A stretch of 41,890 bases of DNA from Minisyncoccota bacterium (GCA_022841645.1 JALHRC010000010.1:1-41890); one strand, 5' to 3'. Shown: positions 19,817 to 41,033, counted from the stretch's first letter. The notes: generated by a model not told the origin, from the letters alone. Program-made: numbers and translations.

Positions 19817-19906
19817 GGAGGGATGGCGGAGTGGTCTAACGCGCTTGTCTTGAAAACAAGAGTCTGGGAAACCGGACCGTGAGTTCGAATCTCACTCCCT
19901 CCGCCA
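19817..19906 (+). tRNA. tRNA-Ser(UGA)
   Basis: Acceptor GGAGGGA/TCCCTCC with discriminator G and encoded CCA, anticodon stem CTTGT/ACAAG with loop CTTGAAA (anticodon TGA), long type II variable arm (GTCTGGGAAACCGGAC) and T-arm GAGTTCGAATCTC. The 3' end marks the change to lower-GC sequence. Confidence 0.95.
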
Positions 19907-19908
19907 AG

Positions 19909-19957
19909 TCGAGCTAGCACGAGACGCTTCATTTTGAAGCAAGTCGTACTAGCTCGA
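19909..19957 (+). terminator. Nested hairpin after tRNA-Ser
   Basis: Fourteen-base arms (19909-19922 and 19944-19957, one mismatch) enclose a second hairpin GCTTCA-TTT-TGAAGC. No long T-run follows, so it may be a terminator, a processing signal or an integration-site structure. Confidence 0.5.
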
Positions 19958-20008
19958 ATTCGTTATACAAAAAGTGACAAAAGTTACACTGATCGCAGTA
20001 CTGTAACG

Positions 20009-20194
20009 TTACACTCCATTGTCACTTTCTTCTTCCTCCTGAACATTCAGCGCTCGTTCGAATACTCGCAGTAATCGCTTCTCAATTCGCTCAGCCAAAG
20101 GCTTTGTTCCTTCCATAATCAACTTTCCAGTATTCGCCATGTCACCACTCACTACTCCCCAAATTAGAGCAACTATAAAAAGCCCAATAATCAA
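20009..20194 (-). CDS. 61-aa small membrane protein
   Basis: A short protein with an N-terminal helix (MIIGLFIVALIWGVV) and an amphipathic charged helix (about 32-55, LAERIEKRLLRVFERALNV) before an acidic end. Inverted repeats AAGTGACAA (19971-19979) and TTGTCACTT flank the stop region and could form a terminator. It is the leftmost gene of the putative element. Not recognised. Confidence 0.45.
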   Translation of the reverse strand: MIIGLFIVALIWGVVSGDMANTGKLIMEGTKPLAERIEKRLLRVFERALNVQEEEESDNGV

Positions 20195-20238
20195 CTTCCG
20201 CAGTAATTTTCGTGGGATAAATCAATCTTCCATAAGTC

Positions 20239-22500
20239 TTAGAAAAGAGAGCTTCGTGTCTCGTACTTAATACCCTTACACCATTCAATCTTTGCTACAA
20301 ACTCATCCCAGATTTCCTGAGTTATTTCATGTTTTAAAATCATCTTAGCTCCGTGATTCACGCTTCTGTTATACGAGAACAAGTCATTCTCTAGTTCATG
20401 GAGTTCTACGCAGAGTTGGTGCATGGTAGGACCTGAAAGTGTTGGATGTTCTTTCTTCATTTTCCAATAATCTTGATTCAAGATTATGTATCGCTTATTC
20501 AAATTATCTATTAGCTCGACCAAATTCGCCGAGTCTTTTCCGTACTTTTGGAATAGTAGTCCAAGATAAACCAGCTTTTTAATTACTCGCGGATGGTTGT
20601 ATCCGTGTCCCAGCGACACCTTATCAAAGTGATTCTTCACCAGCTGGATGTATAGCTCAATGGCAAACTTCGGATCAAAAAAATTCTCGCTTAAGTTACT
20701 CCGCACTTCGTTAATAAGAGTTTCCTGAACAATCTCTAAATTAAACAAATGACTACTATCAACTTCCTCAACATTATGGAAATACCAGCTGAGAATATTC
20801 ATTTGAGTTCGATATAGACCAGCTATATCTTTATCGAACTTATTATTGAGGAAATATATAATTCTTAAATTACAATTAACTGCTTGGATAATTTGCAGAC
20901 CCATCTGTTTATTTTCCAGACCAGTAGCCCAAGCAAAATCGAGTAAGTAATCACTCCATCGCTCAAGTAGTGCAATAAAATCATCAAATGCTCTTTGCTT
21001 GTCTTCGCCATCTTCTAACCCAACAATAGTATTGCACACAAGCGTAAGCCATTCGTTAAAACCGAGATACAGCTCGCTCGATGTGAGATTCATCTCGCTT
21101 GAAATTGCTAATGCTAGCGTACTCTTCTGGAGACCCTTGAACAAATCCTGCCAGAATATTTCTTCATCTGGATATTGATTCCAGCCAACCTTCGCCTGAC
21201 TGAGGTACACCGATACAGCTTGCTTGGTTAAGCTTTCGGGCTGATTATTTTTCAAACAATGTACTACGATTCGATCGATAACATCGTTGATTTGATTGTG
21301 GTTAAAGTGGTTATACCCTTTACCTAGTACACCATTAGATACCTTAGTGAGTGACTTTAACGACTCCCAAATCCAATCCCGCTCGTTTGATTCGGTGAGC
21401 TTGTCGATGAAGCCAATATAGTAGCCCAATACTAAACTTAGGATTGGGTTCTCACCTTGGTTGTACATATTCTGGTCTGCATACTTGAACTGCAGGGCGG
21501 CACCGAGAATACTTTCGTAGACGGTGAGCAGATAATAGATGTTCTCTTTTCGCTTTTCCTGTATCAAGCGATGACTGATTGACTCAAGATACTCTAATGT
21601 CGAAGAAGTGAAATTCTCATCCTCAAATGTGTATGTACCCCAGAAGCTAGCCGGTACACACATAATTTGCTCGCTACGTAATCGTAGGTGCTCAATATAC
21701 ACGTCATGAATGTACTTAAGTGTCAGATTGAACGAGTTGATTTCATTCTTTGAAAGAAGTCGTAACCCAATCTCATATAAATATTTAACATTCTCCAGTG
21801 TCGGTGCGTTCCATTGAGGGTACGCTTTGTATTGAATTGCTAACGTCAGCTTTTCTTCTCGTTCCTCTTGTTCATAAATCTTGTTCTGTATATTTGCCTG
21901 TTTCTCTAGTTCACGCCGTGCGTACTGCAAGTGATAAAAAGCATCACCCTTAATCTTATTGAGCGTTGTCTCAGGATTAATGCGCTGACGAAGTTGTTTG
22001 TATAGTGAGTAAATGAGCAGAAAAGCTATAGACAGAATGCCTAGTAAAACCTCGAAAGTTTCACTAAACGCAAAGATCGGGACAAGGGTTGATGCAAATG
22101 TCAGTGCTACTAAGCTCCAAAAGATATACTTTTCATTTTTATCCTGAATGAATTTGTTGAGGTACTGTGTTGAGAACAGATCAGCGGTACTCTGGAGAAT
22201 AAATGTAGAGAACGAGAAAACGATAGCGATAGACGCACCAATTACTCCAGCGACCGCTAGACCAATACTAATCAGTTGATCTTCGGTGAAGCGTAGTTTG
22301 TACAGCTCTAACACGTAGTGCGTACCGCACAGCAATATGGTGAAAATAAGAGCCTGAAAATAAAATGTGTCTACTGTTTCAATCGCCAACTTCTTCTTTT
22401 GCAACAACCAAGCACGAGCTAATTGCTGTGAGCGGAAAACAAACAGTAAAAACCGCTGCTTTAGTGTGAATTTCTTGTTTTCATTCTGATTTTCTTCCAT
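20239..22500 (-). CDS. Large membrane protein, DUF2254-like N-terminus
   Basis: A 753-aa protein. The N-terminal ~180 residues hold four hydrophobic helices (about 48-65, 80-105, 125-145, 150-168); the segment IGLAVAGVIGASIAIVFSFS, followed by STADLFSTQYL, resembles DUF2254-type predicted membrane proteins. The remaining ~570 residues are soluble, mostly alpha-helical and repetitive in feel, probably a cytoplasmic superhelix. No enzymatic motif is visible. In a putative mobile element, a membrane anchor with a large helical sensor domain fits an anti-phage or exclusion function, but that is speculation. It is transcribed away from the terminase genes. Confidence 0.55.
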   Translation of the reverse strand: MEENQNENKKFTLKQRFLLFVFRSQQLARAWLLQKKKLAIETVDTFYFQALIFTILLCGTHYVLELYKLRFTEDQLISIGLAVAGVIGASIAIVFSFSTFILQSTADLFSTQYLNKFIQDKNEKYIFWSLVALTFASTLVPIFAFSETFEVLLGILSIAFLLIYSLYKQLRQRINPETTLNKIKGDAFYHLQYARRELEKQANIQNKIYEQEEREEKLTLAIQYKAYPQWNAPTLENVKYLYEIGLRLLSKNEINSFNLTLKYIHDVYIEHLRLRSEQIMCVPASFWGTYTFEDENFTSSTLEYLESISHRLIQEKRKENIYYLLTVYESILGAALQFKYADQNMYNQGENPILSLVLGYYIGFIDKLTESNERDWIWESLKSLTKVSNGVLGKGYNHFNHNQINDVIDRIVVHCLKNNQPESLTKQAVSVYLSQAKVGWNQYPDEEIFWQDLFKGLQKSTLALAISSEMNLTSSELYLGFNEWLTLVCNTIVGLEDGEDKQRAFDDFIALLERWSDYLLDFAWATGLENKQMGLQIIQAVNCNLRIIYFLNNKFDKDIAGLYRTQMNILSWYFHNVEEVDSSHLFNLEIVQETLINEVRSNLSENFFDPKFAIELYIQLVKNHFDKVSLGHGYNHPRVIKKLVYLGLLFQKYGKDSANLVELIDNLNKRYIILNQDYWKMKKEHPTLSGPTMHQLCVELHELENDLFSYNRSVNHGAKMILKHEITQEIWDEFVAKIEWCKGIKYETRSSLF

Positions 22501-22604
22501 ATTGTCATAACATCCCGATGCTGAGAATATGTCAATTATACTAAAAATAAGGGTATTCTCAGTGTAGTCAGTTACTAGATAGTGTTTCGTAGTTAAAACG
22601 AGAG

Positions 22605-22610
22605 TATAGT
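22605..22610 (+). promoter_or_regulatory. -10 box of the 273-aa gene
   Basis: TATAGT, six bases before the ATG at 22617; no room for a ribosome-binding site, suggesting a leaderless message. Confidence 0.4.
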
Positions 22611-22616
22611 TATTAA

Positions 22617-23438
22617 ATGTCCAAGCCGGTATACGACCAGCGATACTACAAAATCAAAGCCCTGCTTAAAAATCAGGCTTTTCAGCTTGATATTCAGTGG
22701 CTCAAAGACCAGTTTGCAAAATATGGTGTACCTGTACCAGAAAACGGTTTTGATTCATATAAGGACTATCTCGCATGGAACGAGCGATTTTGGCAGATTT
22801 GGAGTGAACGTGATCGATCAGCAGAGGTAAAAGTGTTGTGGCATAAGTACGCAAACCCTGAAGATAAGAAGATATATGGTGTTGAAAAGTATGATGAGTA
22901 CGAGCGAGAAAAATCTGAATTAGTGCCACCCATATACGGTTCATATCTACGTGATGTGGCAGCTAAGTACGATTTTGATCCCAAAGATAAAGAGTTTATA
23001 GGTTTTCTCACCTACTACATCTTCCTAGGTAGAGATGAGATTCTCAGTCAATCAGTGGTGGTGAATCACAGGCGTAATGAAAAGACAAGCCAGATGGAAA
23101 TGTATGTACGGATTTTTCCATGGACGACCAAAGAGGATATTGTTAGTAACTGGGGTTTTATTAAAAAAGAACAGGCATGGTATCGCACTGGTTTAGATCG
23201 TAACCAAGAGTGGAAGAATTTTGACCGTGATTATCGTATCTTCGAACTGTACAACCAAGCCCGTGAAATGCGAGCTGGGGGTGATAAGCGTCCTCTAGAA
23301 GAGATATCCTATTCCCTCTATTATGCAGAGACTAGGGACGATGATATGGACATCGCTAATATTAAAAAGATCGTCAGTCTCACAAAGCAGAAACTCAGTA
23401 TCAGTATTGGTGAAGAGATATCGTCCGATAACTCGTAA
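22617..23438 (+). CDS. Hypothetical element-borne protein
   Basis: A 273-aa soluble protein, rich in Tyr, Trp, Lys and Asp, without signal peptide or membrane segment. It looks mixed alpha/beta, with a central IFPWTTKEDIVSNWGFIKKEQ stretch and a charged C-terminus. It opens the rightward gene group that continues into the methyltransferase and terminase, 64 bases apart. I recognise no family; a DNA-binding or packaging-related role would be guesswork. Confidence 0.55.
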   Translation: MSKPVYDQRYYKIKALLKNQAFQLDIQWLKDQFAKYGVPVPENGFDSYKDYLAWNERFWQIWSERDRSAEVKVLWHKYANPEDKKIYGVEKYDEYEREKSELVPPIYGSYLRDVAAKYDFDPKDKEFIGFLTYYIFLGRDEILSQSVVVNHRRNEKTSQMEMYVRIFPWTTKEDIVSNWGFIKKEQAWYRTGLDRNQEWKNFDRDYRIFELYNQAREMRAGGDKRPLEEISYSLYYAETRDDDMDIANIKKIVSLTKQKLSISIGEEISSDNS

Positions 23439-23502
23439 CCAAGAAACGATACAGTCTAGTGTCTAATACGCTTACCAATTTATTAGGTAAGCGTATTTCA
23501 AT

Positions 23503-24783
23503 ATGAAGAAGCTAATTTGGCACACTGAAACTCGTATTATTAACGACTTAGTCCCGTACGAGCGCAATCCCCGTACTCTAAGCGATGTTCAACTCAAGAA
23601 GCTGAAACGAAGCCTTGAAAAGTTTAACTTGGTCGAGATACCAGCAATCGATACCGACAATAAGGTGATTGCAGGGCATCAACGTCTTAAGGTGATGCAA
23701 TTACTCGACCGTGGTCACGAGGAGATTGATGTGCGTGTACCCAACCGTAAGCTCACCAAGAAAGAATACGAGCAATACCTGATCACCTCGAACAAAGTCA
23801 CTGGCGACTGGGATTTTGAAGCACTCAAGAGCTTTGACCTCGAATTACTGTCTGATGCTGGATTTGACGACCTCGAACTCGCTTCGTTCTGGGACGAGGA
23901 CCTAAAAGCTGAAGATGACAGTTTTGATGAAGAAACGGCAGTCGAAGAAGCTAAGGACACCGATATCGAATCTGGTGACCTGCTCGTGCTTGGAAAGCAC
24001 AAACTTCTCTGTGCTGACTGTACTGATAGTGAAGCAGTCAAGGCATTGTTCGGACAGGACAAGACTAGCTTCATATACTCTGACCCGCCATACAACATAA
24101 ATTTGGACTACGACAAAGGTGTCGGCAATAAAGCTTCATACGGTGGAAAGGTCGATGATGACAAGAAACCGGAGCAATACAAAGCCTTTATCAAGCAAAC
24201 ACTCGAAGCCGCGCTGGCAGTCACAACCAAGGATACTCATGTCTTCTATTGGTGCGACGAAGCATGGGTGTGGGTATTCCAGACCCTCTATGACGAACTC
24301 GATATCAAGAACCGCCGTCTCAATATCTGGCTAAAGAATAACGCGTCACCAACACCAACCGTTGCCTTCAACAAAGTTGTTGAGATGTGCGTATACGGCA
24401 CGCTTGGGTCTCCATACCTAACTGAGTCAGTGAAAGATGCGACTGAAGTCTTAAATCCTGAACTTGGCACCGGCAACCAGTTACTCGAAGACCTGCACAA
24501 CGTCTGGACAGCCAAGCGTCTGAAAGCTAGCGAATACGAACACCCAACCTCAAAACCACCGTCACTACATGAGAAAGCCATCAAGCGTTGTACCAAGCCT
24601 GACGATATCATTCTTGATTCCTTCGCTGGTTCGGGTAGCACTTTAATAGCAGCTGAGTCACTCGGTCGTCGTGTACACACCATTGAGCAAAATCCGGTGT
24701 TTTGTGAAGTAGTGCGACGTCGATACGAGAAACTCACTGGACAAAAAGCCCAGTTAATCAAACACTTCTATGAAAAAGCCTAA
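23503..24783 (+). CDS. ParB-domain DNA methyltransferase (N4-cytosine/N6-adenine)
   Basis: A 426-aa phage-type modification enzyme. Residues 1-~95 form a ParB/sulfiredoxin-like domain (LVPYERNPRTLSD, AGHQR at 57-61). The methylase domain has the catalytic DPPYN (194-198) and the AdoMet-binding DSFAGSGST near residue 375, in beta-class order. It would methylate the element's DNA, shielding it from restriction or marking packaging sites. No restriction endonuclease is adjacent. The end overlaps the start of the small terminase gene by 14 bases in another frame, so they are co-expressed. Confidence 0.92.
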   Translation: MKKLIWHTETRIINDLVPYERNPRTLSDVQLKKLKRSLEKFNLVEIPAIDTDNKVIAGHQRLKVMQLLDRGHEEIDVRVPNRKLTKKEYEQYLITSNKVTGDWDFEALKSFDLELLSDAGFDDLELASFWDEDLKAEDDSFDEETAVEEAKDTDIESGDLLVLGKHKLLCADCTDSEAVKALFGQDKTSFIYSDPPYNINLDYDKGVGNKASYGGKVDDDKKPEQYKAFIKQTLEAALAVTTKDTHVFYWCDEAWVWVFQTLYDELDIKNRRLNIWLKNNASPTPTVAFNKVVEMCVYGTLGSPYLTESVKDATEVLNPELGTGNQLLEDLHNVWTAKRLKASEYEHPTSKPPSLHEKAIKRCTKPDDIILDSFAGSGSTLIAAESLGRRVHTIEQNPVFCEVVRRRYEKLTGQKAQLIKHFYEKA

Positions 24784-25168
24784 GTATTCAAAGAAGTTCC
24801 TCGAAGAGTTACGCAAAGTACCAATCGTGCAGGTGGCGTGCGAGAAGGTTGGCGTCTCTCGCAATACTGTCTATCGCTGGAAACGTGAAGACAAAGATTT
24901 TGCTAAGCAGTTTGATGAAGCCTTAGCTGACGGTGTGGAGTTTGTGAATGACATGAGTGAAAGTCAGCTCCTTCAATTGATTAAAGAGAAGAACTTCTCA
25001 GCTGTTCGCTTCTGGCTCAATAAACGTCATCCGGCATACAAAGACAAGCTTGAAGTCACTCGTATTGGTGAGATTGAAGAACTTAGTCCTGAACAAGAGG
25101 CCACTGTCCGCAAAGCACTCGAAATGGCCAAAATTATTCCATCTAAAGATCATGATTATGAAAAATAA
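24770..25168 (+). CDS. Phage terminase small subunit-like protein
   Basis: A 132-aa protein with an N-terminal helix-turn-helix (VPIVQVACEKVGVSRNTVYRWKRED, split at about 14-38), then helical segments for oligomerisation (FAKQFDEALADGVEFVND, LLQLIKEKNFSAVRFWLNKRHP). This is the phBC6A51-type small terminase layout, which recognises packaging sites and recruits the large subunit. It lies directly before terL and overlaps it by 17 bases. A generic HTH regulator is less likely because of the position. Confidence 0.82.
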   Translation: MKKPKYSKKFLEELRKVPIVQVACEKVGVSRNTVYRWKREDKDFAKQFDEALADGVEFVNDMSESQLLQLIKEKNFSAVRFWLNKRHPAYKDKLEVTRIGEIEELSPEQEATVRKALEMAKIIPSKDHDYEK

Positions 25169-26753
25169 TAACCCCATTACTGAAGAACTGTTTGAATCAA
25201 TGAAGAAAGACCGGGTGGTGCGTCAGCAGATTATGGGTGGAAGCTTTAACTACTTCTTCCATTTCTATTTTGCTCATTACGTGCAGTTTCCAACGGCAAA
25301 CTTTCAGCGTGACTTGATTGGCAAGCTAGAGAACGAACCTGATGAGAATTTGTTTGTGGTGGCGTTTCGTGGCTCAGGTAAGTCAACGATTGTGACCACT
25401 GCGTTTCCGATCTGGTCAATTCTTGGTCAACAGCAAAAGAAGTTTGTGATTATTTTCTGTCAGACTCGTGTGCAAGCCAAACAACACATGATGAATATTC
25501 GCAACGAACTGGAGAATAATCAGCTCCTTAAGAACGACCTTGGGCCGTTTAGTGAGGAATCTGATGAGTGGGGTTCGCACTCCATTGTGTTCTCGAACAC
25601 TAAAGCCCGTATCACCGTTGCTTCATCTGAGCAAAGTATTCGAGGATTGCGTCATCATCAGCACCGACCGGACTTATTCATTTGTGACGACGTGGAGGAT
25701 GTGGCTTCTACCAAAACCCGTGAGGGTCGTAATAAAACATATCAATGGCTTACTGGTGACGTGATTCCAGCTGGTGACCAAAGTACTCGACTGATTGTAA
25801 TCGGAAACCTGCTACACGAAGACTCACTCCTCATGCGACTACGTGACCGAGTTATGAAACAAGAGTTAGACGGTACGTTCATGTCTTGTGCACTGGTTAC
25901 GAAAGATAATAAATCTGCCTGGCCAGGGAAGTTTCCGACTCTAACATCAATCGAAAAAGAGCGTAAAAAGATTGGTGACGAGATTGCGTGGCAACGAGAA
26001 TATCTCCTCAATATTATTCCTGATGATGACCAAGTTATTCACCCTGAGTGGCTGTGCTATTACTATGCTGACAAAATACCGCCAGAATCGAGCAAAGCAT
26101 ATCGGGCTACCTATACTGGTGTTGATCTCGCCATCTCACAAAAAGACACAGCCGACTGTACCGCCATGGTCACAGCACGAATATTTGGTCGCAACGAAGC
26201 ACTACGTATCTTTTGCGAACCTCACTTAGTCAATAAGCGACTGACGTTCCCTCAGCAAGTGGAACTAATGAAGCATCACAGTAGCACCCACTTAACCGGT
26301 CGCAATGATGAGTTAATTGTTGAAAGTGTTGCTTACCAAGATGCCTTGCCACAAATGCTCGACTCACAGGGAGTAAAGGCAATCTCAGTAAAGCCTAAAA
26401 ATGATAAGCGCACACGACTTGCACTGACATCCTCTATGATTCAGAAAGGCACCATCTTGTTTCCAGATAAAGGCTGTGAACGTCTCATCGAGCAGATGGT
26501 AGGGTTTGGTGTTGAAAAGCATGACGATCTGGCTGATGCTTTTTCACTTCTGATTCACAAAATAGTTGAAGAATTTACCAGAGAAAGTACATTCCTGATT
26601 GCGTTCTTCGGATCTGGACCAATCGAAGACAGCACCTGCTGGTACCACGATTATCGTGATGTTCTGCAAGACGTTGATTGTTTAACGCCAGCCGCTAAAG
26701 AACGGATTCAAACAGTAGATACCCCTGAAAGTCGAAGACGACGACGTCACTAG
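25152..26753 (+). CDS. terL: Phage terminase large subunit
   Basis: A 533-aa packaging motor and nuclease, counted from the ATG at 25152 (a second at 25158 is equally good); the longer frame lies within the small-subunit gene. Walker A FRGSGKST (72-79), Walker B LFICDDVED (175-183) and a coupling-type IVIGN near 218 form the ATPase. The C-terminal RNase H-like nuclease shows TGVDLAIS and the late HDDLADAF acidic pair. It appears intact. No portal or capsid gene follows; instead it ends in a CTAG interlocked with the stop of the opposing Ltp-like gene. Confidence 0.92.
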   Translation: MIMKNNNPITEELFESMKKDRVVRQQIMGGSFNYFFHFYFAHYVQFPTANFQRDLIGKLENEPDENLFVVAFRGSGKSTIVTTAFPIWSILGQQQKKFVIIFCQTRVQAKQHMMNIRNELENNQLLKNDLGPFSEESDEWGSHSIVFSNTKARITVASSEQSIRGLRHHQHRPDLFICDDVEDVASTKTREGRNKTYQWLTGDVIPAGDQSTRLIVIGNLLHEDSLLMRLRDRVMKQELDGTFMSCALVTKDNKSAWPGKFPTLTSIEKERKKIGDEIAWQREYLLNIIPDDDQVIHPEWLCYYYADKIPPESSKAYRATYTGVDLAISQKDTADCTAMVTARIFGRNEALRIFCEPHLVNKRLTFPQQVELMKHHSSTHLTGRNDELIVESVAYQDALPQMLDSQGVKAISVKPKNDKRTRLALTSSMIQKGTILFPDKGCERLIEQMVGFGVEKHDDLADAFSLLIHKIVEEFTRESTFLIAFFGSGPIEDSTCWYHDYRDVLQDVDCLTPAAKERIQTVDTPESRRRRRH

Positions 26754-27484
26754 TATCCGACAGCTGTTGCTCCGTATTGAGCTTGTGCGGTAGTGAATCC
26801 TTCAAACTTTAACTGTTCAATGAGGCCGCTTCGAGAGAAATTACTGTATTCAAGATATGCTTTAGCTGACAAAGCAGCTTGCTCGTTCCAGTCTACTGTG
26901 ATGTTTTCTACACCATACTCAGCCTCAGTGCGTGAGTACCCCTCAAACTCTAATTGTTCGATGAGACCTGATTTTGAAAAAGCTCTAAAGTCGATGTAGT
27001 TTTGTGCGGCTCGGATCGCTTGTTTTTCACCTAGAGTGGGTTGGTTTTGGGTTACTACTAGTGTTTCGACAACTGGCTCAGGGTTTGTTTCAACTACAAC
27101 ATCAGCGGATTCTTGTACGACCGTTTCTGGTTCATCTACATTCTCACTTGATTCAGTATCCGCTTCTGATTCTGCAACCACTTCTTGAGGCGTATTTTCT
27201 ACAACTGGATTACTAGTAGAAGTTGACTCAGTATCCATGGTCGCGCCAGCAATACCAAAGAGAACAATTACTAATACGACTTTCACACCACCTGAGAGTG
27301 ACAGATTAAATTTTTCTTTCAGCATTCGGTTCACTGGCGGCAACAACACTAGTGCTAGTAAGAGAAATAATATGCCGGGCACTGGCTCAGTGAAGAGTAG
27401 TCCGACTCCAGCGATACCGACTAATACGCCAAGTATCCACCCGACTATTAAACCTAGAGTGATTTTAGTTTCTTTTGTTTCCAT
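26750..27484 (-). CDS. Membrane-anchored Ltp-like repeat protein (putative superinfection exclusion)
   Basis: A 244-aa protein with three N-terminal hydrophobic segments (about 10-28, 33-50, 66-82), a Glu/Val/Ser/Thr-rich linker (~85-150) and two tandem Ltp repeats (about 153-196 and 199-242) with the shared core FSKSGLIEQLEFEG / FSRSGLIEQLKFEG and trailing AEYG / AQYG. Ltp-domain lipoproteins of Streptococcus prophages block DNA injection by related phages. Here a transmembrane anchor replaces the lipobox. An exclusion role is inferred from domain and phage context; Ltp repeats also occur in other surface proteins. Confidence 0.72.
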   Translation of the reverse strand: METKETKITLGLIVGWILGVLVGIAGVGLLFTEPVPGILFLLLALVLLPPVNRMLKEKFNLSLSGGVKVVLVIVLFGIAGATMDTESTSTSNPVVENTPQEVVAESEADTESSENVDEPETVVQESADVVVETNPEPVVETLVVTQNQPTLGEKQAIRAAQNYIDFRAFSKSGLIEQLEFEGYSRTEAEYGVENITVDWNEQAALSAKAYLEYSNFSRSGLIEQLKFEGFTTAQAQYGATAVGY

Positions 27485-27829
27485 AATTTCGCGTGGGTTT
27501 TAATTATAAAAATCTTGAGGAACACAAATGGCCACACAAGACCGACGACAGCGACCTTTCGGAAGCTATCCCATATCCTTTCGGATATGAACCCACGCGA
27601 GTAAGTGCCGGCTTATGTGGCCGTTTCTACTCGCGTGGGATTTGTGAACCATACCAACGACAGAGTCGTTGGGTTAGGTGTTGTGATGAACATAATAGCT
27701 CAAACTTTGCTATTACGCACGTCATAATATCGCCAAAATATGCAGTTGCTAAGGGCGAGATGCGAGTATGCGATGTATCGGTTGTTCTGCATAGCTATGC
27801 ATTTCGTGCGATTCTGTCATTAATTACTT
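27485..27829. promoter_or_regulatory. Hairpin-rich region before the integrase; candidate attachment or control site
   Basis: No convincing gene. It holds hairpins CATATCC-TTTC-GGATATG (27572-27589), CCCACGCGAGTA/TACTCGCGTGGG (27592-27603, 27628-27639) and CCAACGAC-AGA-GTCGTTGG (27654-27672), and the perfect palindrome TGCATAGCTATGCA (27788-27801). CGCGTGGG occurs three times in either orientation, including next to the Ltp gene start (27491-27500). Large serine integrases usually have an attachment site beside their gene, so this is the best candidate. Confidence 0.45.
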
Positions 27830-29152
27830 ATGGAAACCGCACAAATATCTGCCAAGTTAGGACAGCAAATACAACCACCAACTGCACCCGTTAAATATCT
27901 TCTCTATGCTCGCAAGAGTACTGAATCAGAAGAACGACAAGTATTGAGTATTGACTCTCAAGTCAAAGAGATGATGGAAATGGCAGCTCGTGAGAATCTC
28001 GATATTGTTGAAGTACGACGTGAGGCACACTCTGCGAAAGCGTCAGGTCAACGACCAGTTTTTCGAGAAATTCTTGAAGATATTAGACAAGGTAAATTCA
28101 ACGGCATTATCGTATGGCATCCAGACCGTTTGAGTCGTAACGCTGGAGACCTTGGTGAGTTAGTTGACCTCATGGATCAAAAGCTACTGGTCGAAATCAG
28201 AGCTAATGGGCAAACATTCACCAACAACCCGAGTGAAAAGTTTCTCTTAATGATTCTCTGTTCGCAAGCGAAGCTTGAGAACGATAACAAGAGTATCAAT
28301 GTGAAGCGTGGACTTAAGACGCGGGTGGAGATGGGGTTGTGGCCAGCTCCAGCACCTACCGGATATGTAAAGCAAAAACGCATGGATCGGAAGTGTGAGA
28401 CGTTAATTGACCCAGAACGTGCACCAGTCATTAAGAAAATGTTTGAGAAGGTGGCATATGAAAAGTGGTCAGGTCGTAAGCTGTACAACTGGCTTCGCTT
28501 TGAACTTAACTTCACAGCATTACCAAGCAAGAAACCACTCAGTCTCGGTAACATCTATCGACTGCTCGAAAACCACTTCTACTACGGTGTCTTCGAGTAC
28601 CCTCGTAATAGTGGTAATTGGTATCAAGGTAAACACGAACCGCTGATCACGAAAGAGTTGTTTGACTTAGTACAAGAACAACTTAAAGGTAACGAATTAA
28701 AGACACGGCAGGGAAAAGAGTTTGCTTTTACCAAGTTGATGACGTGTGGATTATGCGGTTCAGGTATTAGTGCTGACGAGAAATACAAAAAGCTTAAGAA
28801 TGGAAAAATTAATACACACGTCTATTACGGCTGTACCAAGGCGAGAGATAAACACTGCAAGTGCGGATATATAAACGAAACTGAACTTATAGAGCAATTA
28901 CAAGCACTGATTGATACAACTACATTCAGTGAAACAAGTGTTTTAAAGAAAGTGCGAGAAGAAGTAACAAGGTATAAGAAGTTTAGCAAGTCACTCCTTG
29001 GTGAGAATATTAAGATTACAGTAAGTGATATTGACGTGAAAGACTACGTTAAGTTTTTACTTAAAGACGGCACGTTTGAAGAAAAACGTGCCGTCCTTTC
29101 CTGTGTTACTTCACAGATTGTATTGAGTAAGAAGAAGGTGTCTTTGAGGTGA
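27830..29152 (+). CDS. Large serine recombinase (integrase)
   Basis: A 440-aa site-specific recombinase. The resolvase domain carries YARKST with catalytic S30 and the arginine block DRLSR near residue 100. A Recombinase domain follows (about 165-285: APTGYVKQK, IYRLLENHFYYGVFEY), then a zinc ribbon with CGLCGSG and CTKARDKHCKCG (about 305-350) and a short coiled-coil end. It would integrate or excise the element with simple attachment sites. It is somewhat short for the class (450-550 aa) but has all domains. Confidence 0.94.
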   Translation: METAQISAKLGQQIQPPTAPVKYLLYARKSTESEERQVLSIDSQVKEMMEMAARENLDIVEVRREAHSAKASGQRPVFREILEDIRQGKFNGIIVWHPDRLSRNAGDLGELVDLMDQKLLVEIRANGQTFTNNPSEKFLLMILCSQAKLENDNKSINVKRGLKTRVEMGLWPAPAPTGYVKQKRMDRKCETLIDPERAPVIKKMFEKVAYEKWSGRKLYNWLRFELNFTALPSKKPLSLGNIYRLLENHFYYGVFEYPRNSGNWYQGKHEPLITKELFDLVQEQLKGNELKTRQGKEFAFTKLMTCGLCGSGISADEKYKKLKNGKINTHVYYGCTKARDKHCKCGYINETELIEQLQALIDTTTFSETSVLKKVREEVTRYKKFSKSLLGENIKITVSDIDVKDYVKFLLKDGTFEEKRAVLSCVTSQIVLSKKKVSLR

Positions 29153-29159
29153 GTTGCTG

Positions 29160-29465
29160 TTAGTATTTGAAGTACACAACACCAACAATCACCGCCGCAT
29201 AGAGCATGAGCCATAATATTTGCGAGAAAATAATGGCTTTGTCTTGACGTGAAATTCCGTAGTATAGCCAAAAAGCTGACAAACAGAAGTACGTACCCCA
29301 TGACCAGAGCGATAATCCTTCGACTAAATGATCAATCCACACGACCTTAAGTTGTGGCAGCGTCATAATTGGACCAATAAAGGCAACGACGTAGACAAAC
29401 CGATCAATAAAGCGATTGGATTTGCTTCTGGTTACTTCATTAATTGTTTTGCAGTTAGGGTCCAT
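29160..29465 (-). CDS. SemiSWEET/PQ-loop family transporter
   Basis: A 101-aa three-helix membrane protein: helices at about 22-38, 53-70 and 78-98. The PQ motif (TLPQLKVVW, 37-38) and the EGLSLWSWGTYFCLSAFWLYYG block are typical of bacterial SemiSWEETs, which dimerise to carry sugars by facilitated diffusion. Substrate unknown. First gene outside the integrase, on the opposite strand and convergent with it. Its end lies 7 bases from the integrase stop. Confidence 0.82.
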   Translation of the reverse strand: MDPNCKTINEVTRSKSNRFIDRFVYVVAFIGPIMTLPQLKVVWIDHLVEGLSLWSWGTYFCLSAFWLYYGISRQDKAIIFSQILWLMLYAAVIVGVVYFKY

Positions 29466-29479
29466 TGTGTGATTATTGT

Positions 29480-29929
29480 TTACTGTAGTCGGAAGTCGTT
29501 ATAGGTAACAATCCCTGATTTATCAATAGCAATAAACCATGGCGTACCGCCAGTTTGGTATGCGACCATCGTTTGCGGTCGGCCGTCAGGCGCATTGGCC
29601 CCACTGTCTTGAATAAATGGAACTTCAATATCGTACTGTTTTCTGGTCTCCACCAACTTCTCAAACGTGTTTACGTCATGTCCCTCAAACACAGTTTGAA
29701 TCACCGCTACGGCAAGGTCTTTTGGTCTGTTTTCTAGGACTCTTTGTAGCGCGGGGAAACCGTGAGAATAACAACCAGGACACCACGATTGAAAACAAAA
29801 TAGTAAAAGTGGCTTTTGACCAAGACCAAGGTTAGTAAGTGTCAGTGGTCTATCCGCCTTTGTACTGTCCGATTTAAGCCATTCGGTAAATTGTAAATCA
29901 GGTGCTTTGGTGTTAATTATTCCGTACAT
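29480..29929 (-). CDS. TlpA/peroxiredoxin-like thiol-disulfide protein
   Basis: A 149-aa thioredoxin-fold protein with active site SWCPGCYSH (C50 and C53) and a late cis-Pro loop GGTPWFIAID. The insert between and the CPGC motif resemble TlpA/ResA-type reductases or AhpC/TSA relatives. No signal peptide is seen, so it probably works in the cytoplasm. It starts 2 bases after the antiporter stop, so both are co-transcribed. Partner unknown. Confidence 0.82.
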   Translation of the reverse strand: MYGIINTKAPDLQFTEWLKSDSTKADRPLTLTNLGLGQKPLLLFCFQSWCPGCYSHGFPALQRVLENRPKDLAVAVIQTVFEGHDVNTFEKLVETRKQYDIEVPFIQDSGANAPDGRPQTMVAYQTGGTPWFIAIDKSGIVTYNDFRLQ

Positions 29930-29931
29930 AG

Positions 29932-31146
29932 TTACATGTCATTACGTGTTAAAAGCCATTTTGTTATCAGTGGATAGACTAGCAATGAGAATAGGATCAT
30001 ATAAAATGCTAATCCTAAGAATAGTGATTTGTAGGCAAATTCAGCTGGCAGTAACAATATAAGCGCTACCGATACAGCACCCCGAGCACCAGCGACATTG
30101 AGCAGCCAGAAGTCAATCTTTGTAAGTGTAAGCGACATGCGCGCGACTACCGGCCACAATATACCAATTGAAACCAAGCGGGCAAAAAATAGAAGTGCTA
30201 GCGACACAAGCAGTAGCGGTATCGCCATACCGACAGATGCTATTCCCGCCATAAAACTCGCTCCCAAAAGAAAGAAGAGCACGGCGTTGGCTAAGTATTC
30301 AAAGTATTCCCAGACATAGTTACGGACATCAATCTGTCGGTTCTTTGGACCCGGTTTGTACCCAAAAGCCAACGCCGCCGCAAACACTGCCAAAATGCCA
30401 GAAAATCCGAGATGTTCGGCCAGTAGATAGCTTCCAAAAGCTAAGGCAACGGTGAGGTTTATTTGAAAGGTAAAATGCTCTTCATGCCATACACGTAAGA
30501 GCCAACGCGTTACTCTTGCCAAGGCTGTACCCAAGAGCAACGCTCCAGCGACGTGACTGACAAACAATCCTGTGCTGGTGGTCCAAGTGATCCCTTCTTG
30601 TTCCAGCAACAACACCAACAATATACCAAACACAGTAACCACAAAACCGTCATTTAAAATAGACTCTCCTTCAATCAAAAGTTTGGTGTCAGGTGAGGTG
30701 TGTTTGTTTCCATGCAACAGTGCGCCAACGGCGAGTGGATCAGTGGCTGACATTATGACGCCAAACAGTAACGATGATAGCCAATCAAACGCAAATCCAA
30801 AGTGCAGCACCGACGCAATCACTCCCATACTGATGACAATACCAACTGTACCCAGCAAGCTGGCGGCCGGTACCACTTTCCGAAAATGAAACAGGCAGAT
30901 CTTTTGTGTTGCTGCAAACACCAAGAGCGGCACGAATACAAAAAGTACGACTTCCGGACTAAGGCTCACTTCTGGTAACGGGAGATCTGTTAGCTGCACT
31001 GCCAAGCCATACGTTACTCCTAATAGGAGCGTCCAAATGATGTTTGGTAAGGAAATCAGTTTATTTGCATAGTAAGAAATAGCGTTTAAAGTCACAAGAC
31101 CAATAACAACAAAAACAAGCAACGACAGTACTGAGGAATCATGCAT
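29932..31146 (-). CDS. Na+/H+ antiporter (CPA1/NhaP type)
   Basis: A 404-aa membrane protein with about 12 helices, exchanging cytoplasmic Na+ for H+. Helix 5-6 motif SATDPLAVGALL carries the DP/ND-type ion-binding acid; EGESILNDGFVVTVFG (about residue 155) is the conserved NhaP/NHE motif; GARGAVSVALILLLP follows late. No cytoplasmic regulatory tail. The start is the ATG at 31146: TATAGT at 31156-31161 leaves 9 bases, and a GTG at 31155 would abut the -10 box. Confidence 0.9.
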   Translation of the reverse strand: MHDSSVLSLLVFVVIGLVTLNAISYYANKLISLPNIIWTLLLGVTYGLAVQLTDLPLPEVSLSPEVVLFVFVPLLVFAATQKICLFHFRKVVPAASLLGTVGIVISMGVIASVLHFGFAFDWLSSLLFGVIMSATDPLAVGALLHGNKHTSPDTKLLIEGESILNDGFVVTVFGILLVLLLEQEGITWTTSTGLFVSHVAGALLLGTALARVTRWLLRVWHEEHFTFQINLTVALAFGSYLLAEHLGFSGILAVFAAALAFGYKPGPKNRQIDVRNYVWEYFEYLANAVLFFLLGASFMAGIASVGMAIPLLLVSLALLFFARLVSIGILWPVVARMSLTLTKIDFWLLNVAGARGAVSVALILLLPAEFAYKSLFLGLAFYMILFSLLVYPLITKWLLTRNDM

Positions 31147-31155
31147 ACACAGCAC

Positions 31156-31161
31156 ACTATA
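31156..31161 (-). promoter_or_regulatory. -10 box of the antiporter operon
   Basis: TATAGT on the minus strand, 9 bases before the chosen ATG; decides against the GTG at 31155. Confidence 0.45.
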
Positions 31162-31197
31162 GCATCCTCACTTTAAAGAAGCAGTACTTGACAGTTT

Positions 31198-31207
31198 TTG
31201 GTATAAT
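31198..31207 (+). promoter_or_regulatory. Extended -10 promoter of the msrB operon
   Basis: TTGGTATAAT contains a TGN-extended perfect -10 box. A TTGACA at 31188-31193 is only 8 bases upstream, too close to be its -35 partner. Drives the msrB-ahpD-msrA group. Confidence 0.6.
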
Positions 31208-31236
31208 TAGAGTATTAAAAATAAATGAAATAGAGT

Positions 31237-31641
31237 ATGAAAACAGACAAACAGCTTAGGGATGATAACCCAGAACTCTACAGGGTAGCTCGAGAAGGTG
31301 GTACTGAAGCTCCGGGTAGTAGTGAGCTATTACACGCCGATAAAGAAGGTATGTTTCGCTGTGCAGTGTGTAACGCCGCGTTATTTGACGGGGAAACAAA
31401 GTTTGACTCCGGCACCGGATGGCCAAGCTTCACTGATCCAGTAAGTAAAGACGCCATTAAGTATATTGACGATGATAGTCATGGCATGCGTCGTACAGAA
31501 GTGCGCTGCGCTAACTGTGACGCACATCTTGGACATGTGTTCCCAGACGGTCCTGAGCGTACTGGCGATGGTGAAAGAGACTTTGGTCGTCATGATAGAT
31601 ACTGTATTAACGGTGTTTGTCTCGATCATCAAGCCAGTTAG
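31237..31641 (+). CDS. msrB: Peptide-methionine (R)-S-oxide reductase
   Basis: A 134-aa repair enzyme reducing the R epimer of methionine sulfoxide in proteins. Two zinc CxxC pairs (42-45, 91-94), the substrate block [10 protein letters not shown] (56-65) and catalytic C123 in RYCIN are present. The usual RYCINSASL end is RYCINGVCL here, giving an extra Cys at 128 that might resolve the sulfenic acid. Full length. It starts a tight operon with the AhpD-like gene (3-base gap) and msrA (18-base gap). Confidence 0.96.
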
Positions 31642-31644
31642 TTT

Positions 31645-32112
31645 ATGGAAGAAAAGACTATTTCCTTCAAAGACTCTCGCTTTAATCCGGACGATATTCC
31701 CTTCCATGACTTTGCTAAGGCGATGGCTAAAGCGTACGGCTTTAATGCTGATTTGCCGGTTGATACGCAGATAGCCCAACTAACTCGTTTACGAGTCGCT
31801 CAAAAAAATCAGTGTTCGTACTGTGTGATCCTTCACACTGAAAAAGCGCGGGAGGCTGGCATTCATTCAGCCAAGATTGATGGAATTAGTGCTTGGGTAA
31901 CGAGCAGACTATATACCGAAAAGGAGCGAGCTGTCCTCACCTACTCCGATGCGTTGTGTAAAGGGTACGATGATAACTTCCAAGAGAAACATGATGCCTT
32001 AGCCAAGTTTTATTCTACGAAAGACATTGCAACATTCGCCGCTATCATCATTAATATGAACGTGTGGACACGTTTGAAATTAGCACAGGGTGCAACGCCT
32101 GAATTTGATTAA
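31645..32112 (+). CDS. AhpD-like alkylhydroperoxidase (carboxymuconolactone decarboxylase family)
   Basis: A 155-aa all-helical protein with the AhpD active site CSYCVILH (C57, C60, H64) and the helix motif ERAVLTYSDALCKG typical of this fold. AhpD-type enzymes use the Cys pair to reduce peroxides or peroxiredoxin. Sandwiched between msrB and msrA, so an oxidative-stress role is well supported by context. The physiological electron donor is unknown. Confidence 0.9.
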   Translation: MEEKTISFKDSRFNPDDIPFHDFAKAMAKAYGFNADLPVDTQIAQLTRLRVAQKNQCSYCVILHTEKAREAGIHSAKIDGISAWVTSRLYTEKERAVLTYSDALCKGYDDNFQEKHDALAKFYSTKDIATFAAIIINMNVWTRLKLAQGATPEFD

Positions 32113-32130
32113 AAGATAACCAACATAGAC

Positions 32131-32640
32131 ATGGAAAAGAACTACAAAAAAGCAGTACTAGCAGGAGGGTGTTTCTGGGGACTGGAAGACCTCATCCGTG
32201 AGCAGCCAGGCGTGATTGACACCGAAGTTGGGTACACTGGCGGTCAAAATGAAAACCCAACCTATCGAAATCATCCAGGTCACGCAGAAGCGGTTGAGAT
32301 TACTTACGATCCAACAAAGACAAGTTACAAGAAATTGCTTGACTTCTTCTTCCAGATTCATAATCCAACGACACTCAATCAACAGGGAAACGATCGTGGA
32401 TCGAGTTACCGCAGCGCTATCTTTTTCGCCAATGACGAAGAGAAAGCGATTGCCGAAGAAATGATCGACATCGTCAATGAGTCTGAACGTTGGTCAGATC
32501 CGGTGGTGACTACTCTTGAACCACAAGGACGTTTCTGGGTGGCTGAGGACTACCACCAAGATTATCTGGTAAACAACCCTGGAGGCTATACCTGTCATTC
32601 AATCTACTTTGATAGTTATCTAACTCCGGAAGAAGCATAA
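32131..32640 (+). CDS. msrA: Peptide-methionine (S)-S-oxide reductase
   Basis: A 169-aa enzyme reducing the S epimer of methionine sulfoxide. The catalytic AGGCFWG (11-17, nucleophile C14), [27 protein letters not shown] and [11 protein letters not shown] blocks are all present. No C-terminal resolving Cys beyond the core is obvious, except the Cys in YTCHS. Last gene of the operon, followed by a strong terminator. Confidence 0.96.
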
Positions 32641-32682
32641 AACAAACAGCGTGCGGCCTCCAGCCGCACGCTGTTTGTTTTA
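32641..32682 (+). terminator. Intrinsic terminator of the msr operon
   Basis: A perfect 17-bp stem (32641-32657 with 32663-32679) around a CTCCA loop, ending in TTTGTTTT, directly after the msrA stop. Confidence 0.9.
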
Positions 32683-32691
32683 CAAATACAC

Positions 32692-32697
32692 TATAGT
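32692..32697 (+). promoter_or_regulatory. -10 box before the 137-aa gene and selO
   Basis: TATAGT, 11 bases before the ATG at 32709; short or no leader. Confidence 0.4.
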
Positions 32698-32708
32698 AAA
32701 ATCACCCT

Positions 32709-33122
32709 ATGAACGAACAAAATAATACTTTCAATGAATTCTGTGCTTGTCTTCTAGACGACAAAGGGGCGCGCGAGCAAACCCCAACTTGGGTACGAGA
32801 ACAACTTGAGAACGGGCTTGAACTGAGCGATTTACTCGAACAAATAAAAAATGTAGCTGAAGAGTATCCACATTGGGGGCTACACGCCGTGGCGGCCATT
32901 GTGGATTTGGGTGACGATCCAGACAGTCCAATAAATCTCCATGATCACGAAAACACGAGTGATGACGCTGACAACTACGATCCACAAGACAATATGCACG
33001 AGGAACTTGAACAAACCGCTAATTATCTCTGGGCATTGTTACAAGAAAATAATAACGAGGCCTTCGACACGTCTACTCACCAAGAACTCTACGACAATAT
33101 CATTCAGGCGCTGGCTCGTTAA
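32709..33122 (+). CDS. Acidic hypothetical protein upstream of selO
   Basis: A 137-aa soluble, strongly acidic protein (DDPDSPINLHDHENTSDDADNYDPQDN in the middle, given here only as a region near 72-98) with helical ends. It lies 3 bases before selO and is certainly co-transcribed with it. I recognise no family; a SelO partner or substrate is a reasonable but untested idea. Confidence 0.65.
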   Translation: MNEQNNTFNEFCACLLDDKGAREQTPTWVREQLENGLELSDLLEQIKNVAEEYPHWGLHAVAAIVDLGDDPDSPINLHDHENTSDDADNYDPQDNMHEELEQTANYLWALLQENNNEAFDTSTHQELYDNIIQALAR

Positions 33123-33125
33123 ACT

Positions 33126-34673
33126 ATGCCAGAGCTTACTATCAAACCAACTTTCATAAAACAACTAACAGGAGATCCTGAAACAGAGAACTACCCTCGG
33201 CCAGTTGCGGAGTTTTTCACGTATGTACATCCAGCACACCCCGGCGACCCGACGCTTCATCATCATATTTCTGAACTCAGTGATGAGCTGCGGCTTGACT
33301 CCAATGACTCATCCTTTCTAGATTATGTGAGTGGATTGTCAGCATTACCAGATTATCGACCTTGGGCCATGAACTACGCCGGTCATCAGTTTGGTAACTG
33401 GGCTGGTCAGCTTGGTGATGGTCGAGCAATAAATATTGCTGAACTTGAAGGCAAGACACAATTTTGGACCGTACAGCTAAAAGGAGCCGGGTTAACCCCC
33501 TACTCACGCGGGGCAGATGGTAAAGCAGTACTTCGTTCCTCTATTCGGGAATATCTCTGCGCTGAAGCGATGCATCATTTAGGAATTCCGACCACTCGTT
33601 CTTTAGCACTCGTCACAACTGGAGACAAAGTTTTGCGAGACGTACTCAACGATGGACACCCAGCACACGAACCAGGCGCGATTGTAACAAGAGCAGCGGA
33701 GAGTTTTATACGTTTTGGTAACTTTGAGCTGTTTGCAAGTCGTGGTGATAAGGAGCGATTGCAGGAACTACTGGACTTTACCATCACTACTCATTTTCCA
33801 AACCTGACCAATTGTAGTGACAATGTCTATCTTGCGCTTTATGAAGAAGTGGTAAACCGAACAATAGAACTGATGGTTGAATGGGAACGGGTTGGTTTTG
33901 TTCATGGTGTCATGAATACCGATAACATGTCTATACTAGGTTTGACAATTGATTACGGCCCGTACGGCTGGCTAGATGCCTTCGATCCAGACTGGACGCC
34001 GAATACTACCGATAACCAATTCCGTCGCTATCGGTTCGGAAATCAGTCAGATATTGCCTACTGGAATCTCCGACAACTTGGACGAGCTTTGGCTCTAGCT
34101 ATTGGTGATGCAGACAGTGTTCAGACCACCTTACATAAATATCACGAACGTTTTGCCACCGATCGAGAAACCATGTATCGAAACAAGCTTGGTCTAGAAA
34201 CCACACAAGATACTGACGCCGAGCTAATCGCGTCGGTGCTCACCTTACTTGAAGAACAACCACTTGATATGACCAGATTCTGGCGACATCTATCTCAATT
34301 CGATGAAACATCTCCAGGGAATCATTTATCACTTATCACCGATGATGCTTACACTGTAGTGTCCGAAACAGATAAAACTAAGTGGCTTGACTGGCTAGAT
34401 ACATACGCTGCAAGATTACGTACAGAGGCCATCTCTCAGTCTGAAAGAGCGGCTCTAATGAATAAAGTCAACCCGAAATATGTCTTTCGTAATTACATTG
34501 CTAGTCAAGTAATCGAAGCGGCCGAAAACGATGACTATACTTTGTTTCGAACTGTCTATGAGTTACTAAAACATCCATATGATGAACAGACTGAACACGA
34601 GATATGGTTTCAAAAACAACCTGCGTGGGCCAGAGATAGAATCGGTTGTTCGCAGCTATCATGTAGTTCTTAA
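33126..34673 (+). CDS. selO: SelO/YdiU family protein adenylyltransferase
   Basis: A 515-aa pseudokinase-fold enzyme that transfers AMP to Ser, Thr or Tyr of proteins, known from E. coli to respond to oxidative stress. Hallmarks: YAGHQFGNWAGQLGDGRA near 80, QLKGAGLTPYSRGADGKAVLRSSIREYLC near 117-145, the HGVMNTDNMSILG metal-binding segment and NPKYVFRNY near 445. It ends CSQLSCSS; the C-terminal Cys is the position of selenocysteine in animal SelO. Complete length. Follows the msr operon, fitting a redox-stress context. Confidence 0.95.
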   Translation: MPELTIKPTFIKQLTGDPETENYPRPVAEFFTYVHPAHPGDPTLHHHISELSDELRLDSNDSSFLDYVSGLSALPDYRPWAMNYAGHQFGNWAGQLGDGRAINIAELEGKTQFWTVQLKGAGLTPYSRGADGKAVLRSSIREYLCAEAMHHLGIPTTRSLALVTTGDKVLRDVLNDGHPAHEPGAIVTRAAESFIRFGNFELFASRGDKERLQELLDFTITTHFPNLTNCSDNVYLALYEEVVNRTIELMVEWERVGFVHGVMNTDNMSILGLTIDYGPYGWLDAFDPDWTPNTTDNQFRRYRFGNQSDIAYWNLRQLGRALALAIGDADSVQTTLHKYHERFATDRETMYRNKLGLETTQDTDAELIASVLTLLEEQPLDMTRFWRHLSQFDETSPGNHLSLITDDAYTVVSETDKTKWLDWLDTYAARLRTEAISQSERAALMNKVNPKYVFRNYIASQVIEAAENDDYTLFRTVYELLKHPYDEQTEHEIWFQKQPAWARDRIGCSQLSCSS

Positions 34674-35275
34674 GTGGGACTCTTCTCAGGCCAGGTTTTA
34701 AAAGTTCCATCACGGAGCGTCCAAACTGGTAGTGATGTATCACCGAATTCACCAACCGCTTTTACCACTACATCCCAATCAGTCGGAGCCCGTTCATCTT
34801 CATTAGTGCTGGAGCGATAGTGTGTTATTAACTTCACTGGTACCACTCCACGACCTGCGATTACTTTTCGACCGCCTGGCGACCAAGCCGCAGCGGCTAA
34901 ATAATTTGCCGCCGAAGAATGAGCAACAATAATCTTATCTCTAAATGTTTTGCTTAGGTCTACAGCCTGTAACATTTTTCGTAGTCGTTTATTGCCTCCG
35001 CCATGAATGATAATCACGTCTGCCCAGTGCACCTCCTCTACAAAACACTCTTCAGAAGCTAACGTATGTTCCACCTCACGATTTTGATTGAAATAGGGGT
35101 CGTACAACGTGCGATAGTTTTGATATTTTGTCTCCTCCTGGGCTTTGCTGGTGGCAAACATACACCATAAAACGTTTACCTTACTGTCAGTATCAGAAAA
35201 TATTTCCTTGGTATACGCAAGAATCTGATCACGGTAATGTGACAAGCAGCCAGAAACTAAAACGCACTTAGTCAT
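34670..35275 (-). CDS. Peptidase S51-like protein (dipeptidase E/cyanophycinase fold)
   Basis: A 201-aa protein from MTKCVLVSGCLSHY. HGGGN (about 80) and the nucleophile elbow AHSSAANYL (about 105) match the S51 pattern, in which Ser, His and Glu/Asp form the active site; YRSSTNEDERAPTDW follows. S51 enzymes cleave Asp-X dipeptides or cyanophycin. The upstream frame overlaps ogt and lacks family sequence, so the start at 35275 is preferred (8-base overlap with ogt). Its stop interlocks with that of selO in TTAA. Confidence 0.75.
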   Translation of the reverse strand: MTKCVLVSGCLSHYRDQILAYTKEIFSDTDSKVNVLWCMFATSKAQEETKYQNYRTLYDPYFNQNREVEHTLASEECFVEEVHWADVIIIHGGGNKRLRKMLQAVDLSKTFRDKIIVAHSSAANYLAAAAWSPGGRKVIAGRGVVPVKLITHYRSSTNEDERAPTDWDVVVKAVGEFGDTSLPVWTLRDGTFKTWPEKSPT

Positions 35276-36509: not shown

Positions 36510-36516
36510 GCATGAT

Positions 36517-36558
36517 GTGTAACAAAAAACCTACCAACTGGTAGGTTTTTTGTTACAC
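36517..36558. terminator. Bidirectional terminator
   Basis: Perfect 19-bp stem (36517-36535 with 36540-36558) with A6 in the left arm and T6 in the right, between two convergent genes. Confidence 0.88.
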
Positions 36559-36559
36559 C

Positions 36560-37153: not shown

Positions 37154-37185
37154 GTGTTGGAAAGAGAGTTGCTACAACTGAGCGT

Positions 37186-37593: not shown

Positions 37594-37653
37594 TATGTTT
37601 TCCTTACCACTCTAGGGTACACTATATTCATTATAACTGTAAATACGATTACC

Positions 37654-37938: not shown

Positions 37939-37942
37939 ATTA

Positions 37943-40717: not shown

Positions 40718-40719
40718 AG

Positions 40720-40980: not shown

Positions 40981-41033
40981 AATTTTCTTAATTACTTATA
41001 TATATTACAACTCCAGATTGGTAGGTTTTCTAC

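Follow-up and report, generated by a model that had tools for sequence, protein, structure and literature searches.

A conserved capsid-less integrative element of Patescibacteria with its own terminase, probably a phage-satellite-like element

The segment between positions 19907 and 29152 of the window (the whole stretch of DNA analysed, 41,890 bp) almost certainly belongs, as judged from sequence comparison, to a conserved family of capsid-less integrative elements of Patescibacteria. Its reading as a packaging-only mobile element is strongly supported, because the same gene set recurs, the TerL proteins form one lineage, the genes appear to be under purifying selection and direct repeats at tRNA ends surround the relatives. 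The element is probably phage-satellite-like and would package itself, by means of its own terminase, into the capsids of a helper.

Gene content and borders of the element

The window is one whole contig (C10) of a Patescibacteria-type assembly of 56 contigs and 1.12 Mb, with a GC content of ~52% in sampled contigs. At 19907, one base past the 3′ end of a tRNA-Ser gene (19906), the GC content falls from ~53% to ~40%, and low values (~44%) continue past 29152 up to the contig end at 41890, over unrelated cargo genes. Therefore, the GC content alone marks no 9-kb element. The first-pass annotation had described a low-GC segment of ~9 kb; its left edge is confirmed by the GC drop and the tRNA-Ser end, but there is no GC boundary at 29152. 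The genes that it had named are all present, intact and in place according to Pfam and PHROGs profile matches, and the absence of virion genes from the segment was likewise confirmed, with no portal, capsid or tail profile match among the window proteins. These proteins gave no primase or Rep profile match either, and no gene for replication was recognised. The features of the window are as follows.

19817..19906, plus strand: tRNA-Ser(TGA) (ARAGORN, Rfam); the element is integrated at its 3′ end, which forms the left border
19907..19960, no strand assigned: left-end inverted repeat, two inverted copies of the att-like core TCGAGCTAGCACGA; also in G044
19967..19999, plus strand: conserved left-end motif AAAAAGTGACAAAAGTTACAC, after the inverted repeat in the window and G044
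20239..22500, minus strand: multi-pass membrane protein of 753 aa in the left-arm cargo slot (weak DUF2254 match)
22617..23438, plus strand: D273, a conserved protein of 273 aa with homologues in other elements
23503..24783, plus strand: ParB-type domain and N6/N4 DNA methyltransferase (PF01555 3e-28, phrog_498 1e-81, phrog_620)
24770..25168, plus strand: TerS (phrog_4044 4e-12, phrog_309)
25158..26753, plus strand: TerL (phrog_38 3.5e-73), ATPase and nuclease motifs intact
26750..27484, minus strand: membrane-anchored Ltp-repeat protein of superinfection-exclusion type (PF07553 1e-27, phrog_15667 7e-35, phrog_4980)
27547..27680, minus strand: LOOT RNA, RF03000 (Rfam, score 71.2 bits, gathering cut-off 46.4)
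27830..29152, plus strand: large serine integrase (PF00239, PF07508 and PF13408, i.e. Resolvase, Recombinase and Zn ribbon; phrog_95)
29160..41699: NhaP-type antiporter, msrB, msrA, SelO, MGMT-like, thioredoxin-like, second divergent G6PDH, glutathione-reductase-like and GST genes
41762..41865, minus strand: element-terminal block, tRNA-3′-like (nhmmer E = 9e-8, profile from the left ends of other elements)

The start of TerL is likely at 25158 rather than at the TTG at 25050 chosen by the ORF caller. The motifs FRGS[GA]KST, DLxIxDDxED, DLAxS and HDDLADAF are conserved in seven aligned TerL proteins, and the nearest sequenced phage TerLs are just ~25% identical to that of the window; the AlphaFold model of TerL was of too low quality for use. 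TerS is 77% identical to the G010 protein (dN/dS 0.054), and AlpA appears merely as a weak HTH match of this TerS. The methyltransferase, whose N-terminus is ParB-like, is 75% identical to those of G044 and G048, and the integrase is 86% identical to that of G044. In the 753-aa protein three TM segments are predicted and no PADLOC match was found; its left-arm slot is filled by defence genes in other elements. D273 has five homologues of ~30% identity (in L147, L150, L162, L163 and L180), its slot is alternatively taken by a ~133-aa protein in other elements, and its predicted model (AlphaFold, pLDDT 77) gave no fold match. The Ltp slot is occupied by different short membrane proteins in other elements. 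A 133-aa ORF at 27493-27894 overlies the LOOT RNA on the opposite strand and for this reason probably does not represent a gene.

Recurrence of the gene set in Patescibacteria

TerL searches of the window's own family (49 genomes) and of genome and viral collections returned well over 100 relatives. The ordered set of methyltransferase, TerS, TerL, accessory genes and serine integrase was complete in 46 of the best 80 genome loci, and the remaining ones were mostly interrupted by contig ends. The accessory position between TerL and the integrase holds from none to several short genes, usually reversed. Nearly all of the best 80 loci come from Patescibacteria/CPR lineages or from bacteria without a lineage name; Omnitrophota, Nanoarchaeia and Dysgonamonadaceae are represented by one locus each, possibly misbinned. 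Eight loci with the same set were found in the window's family (G044, G048, G032, G012, G010, G045 and two in G002), and their chromosomal settings differ. The check recommended in the first-pass annotation, a search of CPR genomes and viromes, has thus shown the capsid-less set in many lineages of Patescibacteria. In the open literature (few subscription papers, no preprints) no description of terminase satellites in Patescibacteria, CPR or Saccharibacteria was found.

Integration site and element ends

The hairpin formed by the left-end inverted repeat has a z value of -5.1, and the same left end, with one compensatory stem change, stands in G044 directly after a different tRNA-Ser(GGA). The palindromic core CTCGTGCTAGCACGAG, or a sequence close to it, lies inside the direct repeats of L138 and L125. 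The adjoining motif AAAAAGTGACAAAAGTTACAC is a putative integrase accessory, packaging or operator site, and a similar motif is located outside the left-most cargo gene in ~30 elements. Attachment repeats, which the first-pass annotation had proposed to look for, occur around relatives as flanking direct repeats at tRNA ends: 36 bp at tRNA-Glu with a span of 13.1 kb in L138, 33 bp at tRNA-His with a span of 18.8 kb in L125, and 22 bp at tRNA-Asn with a span of 12.6 kb in L163. The window itself offered one weak partner of the tRNA-Ser end, 41752-41776 (20/25), which was rejected as it belongs to the reversed element-terminal block. The palindromic core, with TA at its centre, would let the integrase insert the element in either orientation, as is suggested by the arrangements seen in the window and G044 and in L138, L125 and L163.

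Two terminase elements, L137 and L138, stand in tandem beside one tRNA-Glu (JARIGS010000010.1) and have an internal att-like site in common. In L223 (G019:C1) a masked N stretch lies directly after tRNA-Ser, between two GGGTGTTTTTTATTTG-type inverted sequences. Two further candidates were set aside. The left motif (21 nt) recurs in a viral contig of 54.6 kb (L303) within an AT-rich stretch of an unrelated phage-like sequence, and the 44-bp terminal repeat of L190 does not indicate an excised circle, because it sits inside an apparent Rhs-repeat coding gene.

In the chromosomes of relatives, tRNA-Arg, a gene for a 161-aa protein and tRNA-Ser are followed by rpsT, directly or after msr genes; msrA/msrB homologues are present at this place in G030 and G040, where terminase genes are absent, and a different serine integrase lies behind tRNA-Ser in G037. 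The tRNA-Ser site is therefore a hotspot. No empty site was found for the right flank of the window, whose antiporter and G6PDH have no close orthologue in 383 class and 49 family genomes, nor for the right flank of the G044 element (ABC transporter).

Downstream of the element, the low-GC region at 29160-41699 carries oxidative-stress and repair genes. This block was probably acquired laterally, because its G6PDH is only 34% identical to the other copy in the same genome, and the terminal block at 41762-41865 suggests that this hotspot holds the far end of another, or of a larger, island. The terminase module could accordingly be seen as one arm of a composite island of at least ~22 kb, which would fill the hotspot between tRNA-Ser and rpsT and carry the stress genes at 29.2-41.7 kb as cargo. 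The low GC content up to 41.9 kb, the reversed terminal block and the msr homologues of G030 and G040 are consistent with such an island. However, the known elements are only 6.5-18 kb long when measured between left motif and integrase, msr genes are found in the hotspot on their own, and the terminal block, by its opposite orientation, points to a separate island. A composite island is thus unlikely, and it would alter the border of the element, not its mechanism.

Cargo, regulators and the LOOT RNA

In a set of 117 proteins from the cargo of 24 elements, the top families were CBASS cyclases, Cap15-type effectors, Thoeris ThsB, reverse transcriptases, caspases and restriction helicases, and there were no structural PHROGs among the 25 commonest families. 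According to PADLOC, ThsB and an E2-type CBASS protein are encoded by the G010 element, the G032 element has a CBASS cyclase, and a type IIG restriction enzyme lies beside one of the G002 elements. LexA-like proteins are encoded in 33 loci, with the gene placed in the left arm in 28 cases, and all three of those tested have an S24 peptidase domain. Four of the cargo proteins are reverse transcriptases and two are bAvd-like, so that the islands might carry diversity-generating retroelements or a defence based on RT.

An alternative reading raised by such cargo is an integrative defence island. Its terminase and methyltransferase would act on phages, by a restriction-like process or by interference with packaging, and it would spread by its integrase together with natural transformation or transduction. 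The constant pairing of a methyltransferase with an ATPase/nuclease does resemble a modification-restriction pair, defence genes are frequent in the relatives, and the window has an exclusion protein. However, TerS is also kept, and TerS with TerL is the classical packaging pair; moreover, the defence modules are the variable cargo, whereas the terminase is the constant core. A primary role in defence is, on this basis, rather improbable.

The LOOT RNA of the window lies between TerL and the integrase, on the strand of the Ltp gene and 62 nt ahead of that gene, and it is present in eight of ten other element loci scanned. In a class sample of 383 genomes, it was detected in 22 of 24 with this TerL against 81 of 359 without it (Fisher p = 8e-12, a value that overstates independence because the genomes are related). 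The 24 TerL genomes comprise three with prophages that have a portal (G136, G196 and G384), the unclassified G182 and 20 of element type. All 20 element-type genomes have LOOT, one of them below the gathering score, and in 16 its distance to TerL, on one contig, is no more than ~4 kb. Where this TerL is missing, a serine recombinase was found within ~6.5 kb of LOOT at seven of eight loci. LOOT thus extends to a broader set of serine-integrase islands and seems to be general to such islands of Patescibacteria. It is probably a leader RNA that controls the reverse-strand accessory genes. No paper on its host element or function was found in the literature searched.

In the window's own genome, contig C8 (L295, G000:C8) has LOOT RNAs at 5369-5494 and 13149-13279, beside serine recombinases and genes for small secreted or membrane proteins. 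At 5632-9667 of L298 (G355:C9), a serine-integrase island holds a TerS-like gene and LOOT with no TerL of this family; it may represent a TerS-only variety of such elements.

TerL lineage and related phages

Most of the more distant viral relatives (TerL identity of at most 44%) are genuine phages. Downstream of TerL, L070 and L091 encode portal, head protease and major capsid protein (PHROGs; L070 portal 1e-120). Portal, MCP and protease profiles built from these genes match more than 40 viral loci of the sister phages; against ~88 element loci they found no structural gene, barring one 136-aa ORF in L162 that was judged spurious. The TerL tree comprises 160 rows, of which 86 are capsid-less, 40 are portal-linked and 34, mostly cut by contig ends, have neither portal nor integrase in view. 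One change on this tree, a quick search in which some long branches are uncertain, parts the 86 capsid-less from the 40 portal-linked rows, and the latter form one side of a branch with a support of 99. Recurrent decay of prophages would scatter the two kinds of TerL, unlike one ancient event of gain or loss. The single change therefore implies that the loss of capsid genes, if any, was one old event.

In measurable pairs, dN/dS was 0.02-0.10 for TerL, about 0.03-0.05 for TerS and 0.08 for the methyltransferase, and dS was saturated, giving no ratio, in several pairs including the window TerL and that of G010. Where measurable, the three genes thus appear to be under purifying selection. The prophages of G136:C11, G196:C23 and G384:C1, in which a sister-clade TerL adjoins a phrog_12 portal, are candidate helper lineages. 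Full prophages with the same genes were named in the first-pass annotation as a finding that would speak against a satellite; they are seen in this separate sister clade only, not among the element TerLs. The same annotation had also considered a prophage reduced by deletion; given the one change on the tree, this origin is not supported for the window copy. That the element is a remnant of a complete Patescibacteria phage, which lost its head and tail genes and whose packaging and integration genes are now decaying, is very improbable: the order of methyltransferase, TerS and TerL is that of phages, and the sister clade keeps its virion genes right after TerL, but the reduced set occurs in many lineages as one line apart from the portal-linked TerLs, its genes are intact and, where measurable, under purifying selection, and traces of structural genes were found in none of the ~88 element loci.

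Structural genes elsewhere in the genomes

Structural genes at a second locus, likewise raised in the first-pass annotation, were sought with two portal profiles (PF04860 and phrog_12), which do not cover every portal family, and the result was negative in nearly all element carriers. PF04860 portals were found in two of 49 family genomes, one of them a fragment on contig C23 of the window's own genome; with phrog_12, eight of 383 class genomes had a portal, while the 20 element-type genomes had none apart from the C23 fragment. Within the limit of two profiles, this near-absence indicates that structural genes are not kept at a second locus. Any helper would need to enter from elsewhere or belong to a different family. 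Contig C12 of the same genome (L015, L016, L038) is a complete-looking 41-kb phage with TerL, a portal-like protein, tape measure and amidase. It was rejected as a related phage, its TerL being remote and no DNA being common with the element, and is at most a possible helper or a stray or misbinned contig.

Discussion

The satellite proposed in the first-pass annotation is upheld in so far as a packaging-only mobile element is concerned; the redirection of helper capsids remains its conditional part, neither a helper pair nor a shared packaging site, an excised circle or a particle having been found. The following course of events may be proposed for a self-packaging satellite. Upon helper infection or SOS, the integrase would excise the element as a circle, a LexA-like S24 repressor being encoded in many relatives, and helper or host enzymes would copy its DNA. 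TerS would recognise a packaging site of the island itself, TerL would dock on the helper portal and fill the helper capsid, and the ParB-type methyltransferase may mark or protect the element DNA. In a new cell, the integrase would insert the element at a tRNA end. The Ltp protein of the window, and the CBASS, Thoeris, RT and restriction cargo of the relatives, would defend host and island against other phages. Satellites with their own TerL usually encode capsid genes too, as cf-PICIs do. It is unusual for a TerL to occur with neither portal nor capsid, and the TerL of the window type would have to fit a foreign portal.

A broader hypothesis is plausible but tentative. The elements may constitute a Patescibacteria-wide class of terminase-autonomous, capsid-less satellites of one ancient origin, which would hijack helper virions through TerS and TerL, integrate either way at tRNA genes by means of a palindromic core, act as major carriers of defence and use LOOT to control surface and accessory genes.

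Phage satellites are mainly known from cultured bacteria and marine groups. A satellite family across Patescibacteria would mean a shared economy of satellites and defence in ultra-small, mostly uncultured bacteria. The set of methyltransferase, TerS, TerL and serine integrase, together with LOOT, provides markers for finding such elements, and the portal-less TerL raises the mechanistic question of whether a motor can fit foreign portals. LOOT, an Rfam family for which no role was found in the literature searched, gains a genetic home and testable target genes.

Comparison with known systems

Several general features of satellites are found in the element: its own recombinase acts at a specific site (serine integrase, tRNA-Ser border, tRNA repeats of the relatives), complete virion genes are absent, and TerS and TerL have intact motifs and signs of purifying selection. 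PICIs are characterized by a tyrosine integrase, an AlpA/Stl regulator and a primase/Rep module. Like PICI/SaPI, the element is an island in the chromosome that brings its own integrase, occupies a fixed site, has TerS, a regulator and interference or defence cargo, and lacks a capsid set. Unlike them, it has a full TerL beside TerS, a serine integrase, a ParB-methyltransferase and LOOT, and it has no primase/Rep and no AlpA/Stl, which places it outside the PICIs. cf-PICIs encode their own portal and capsid. The element resembles them as a satellite-type island with its own terminase, but neither the window nor the related elements have a portal or capsid, so it does not belong to this group either (cf-PICI is named in PMC11389934). 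It differs from P4-like satellites in that the window proteins gave no matches to Psu, Delta, Sid or the alpha primase-helicase, and from temperate prophages in the absence of head, connector and tail modules, which are present in the sister clade only.

With PICMI the element shares small size, a reduced gene content and the absence of capsid-remodelling genes; PICMI have no terS or other packaging-redirection gene (PMC10803314), and their host group differs. Tycheposons and VEIMEs (named in PMC10803314 and PMC11389934), which are described from marine bacteria, are by description comparable: chromosomal islands of environmental bacteria, moved by transduction and variable in cargo. The tailed phages of Patescibacteria in the sister TerL clade (L070; G136, G196 and G384) have a related TerL and the same TerS-TerL order, but in these phages portal, head protease and major capsid protein follow TerL. 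LOOT (RF03000), to which the RNA at 27547-27680 clearly belongs, is here tied to serine-integrase islands. Summarizing, although the element lacks the tested defining features of PICI, cf-PICI and P4-like satellites, it appears to work like a phage satellite.
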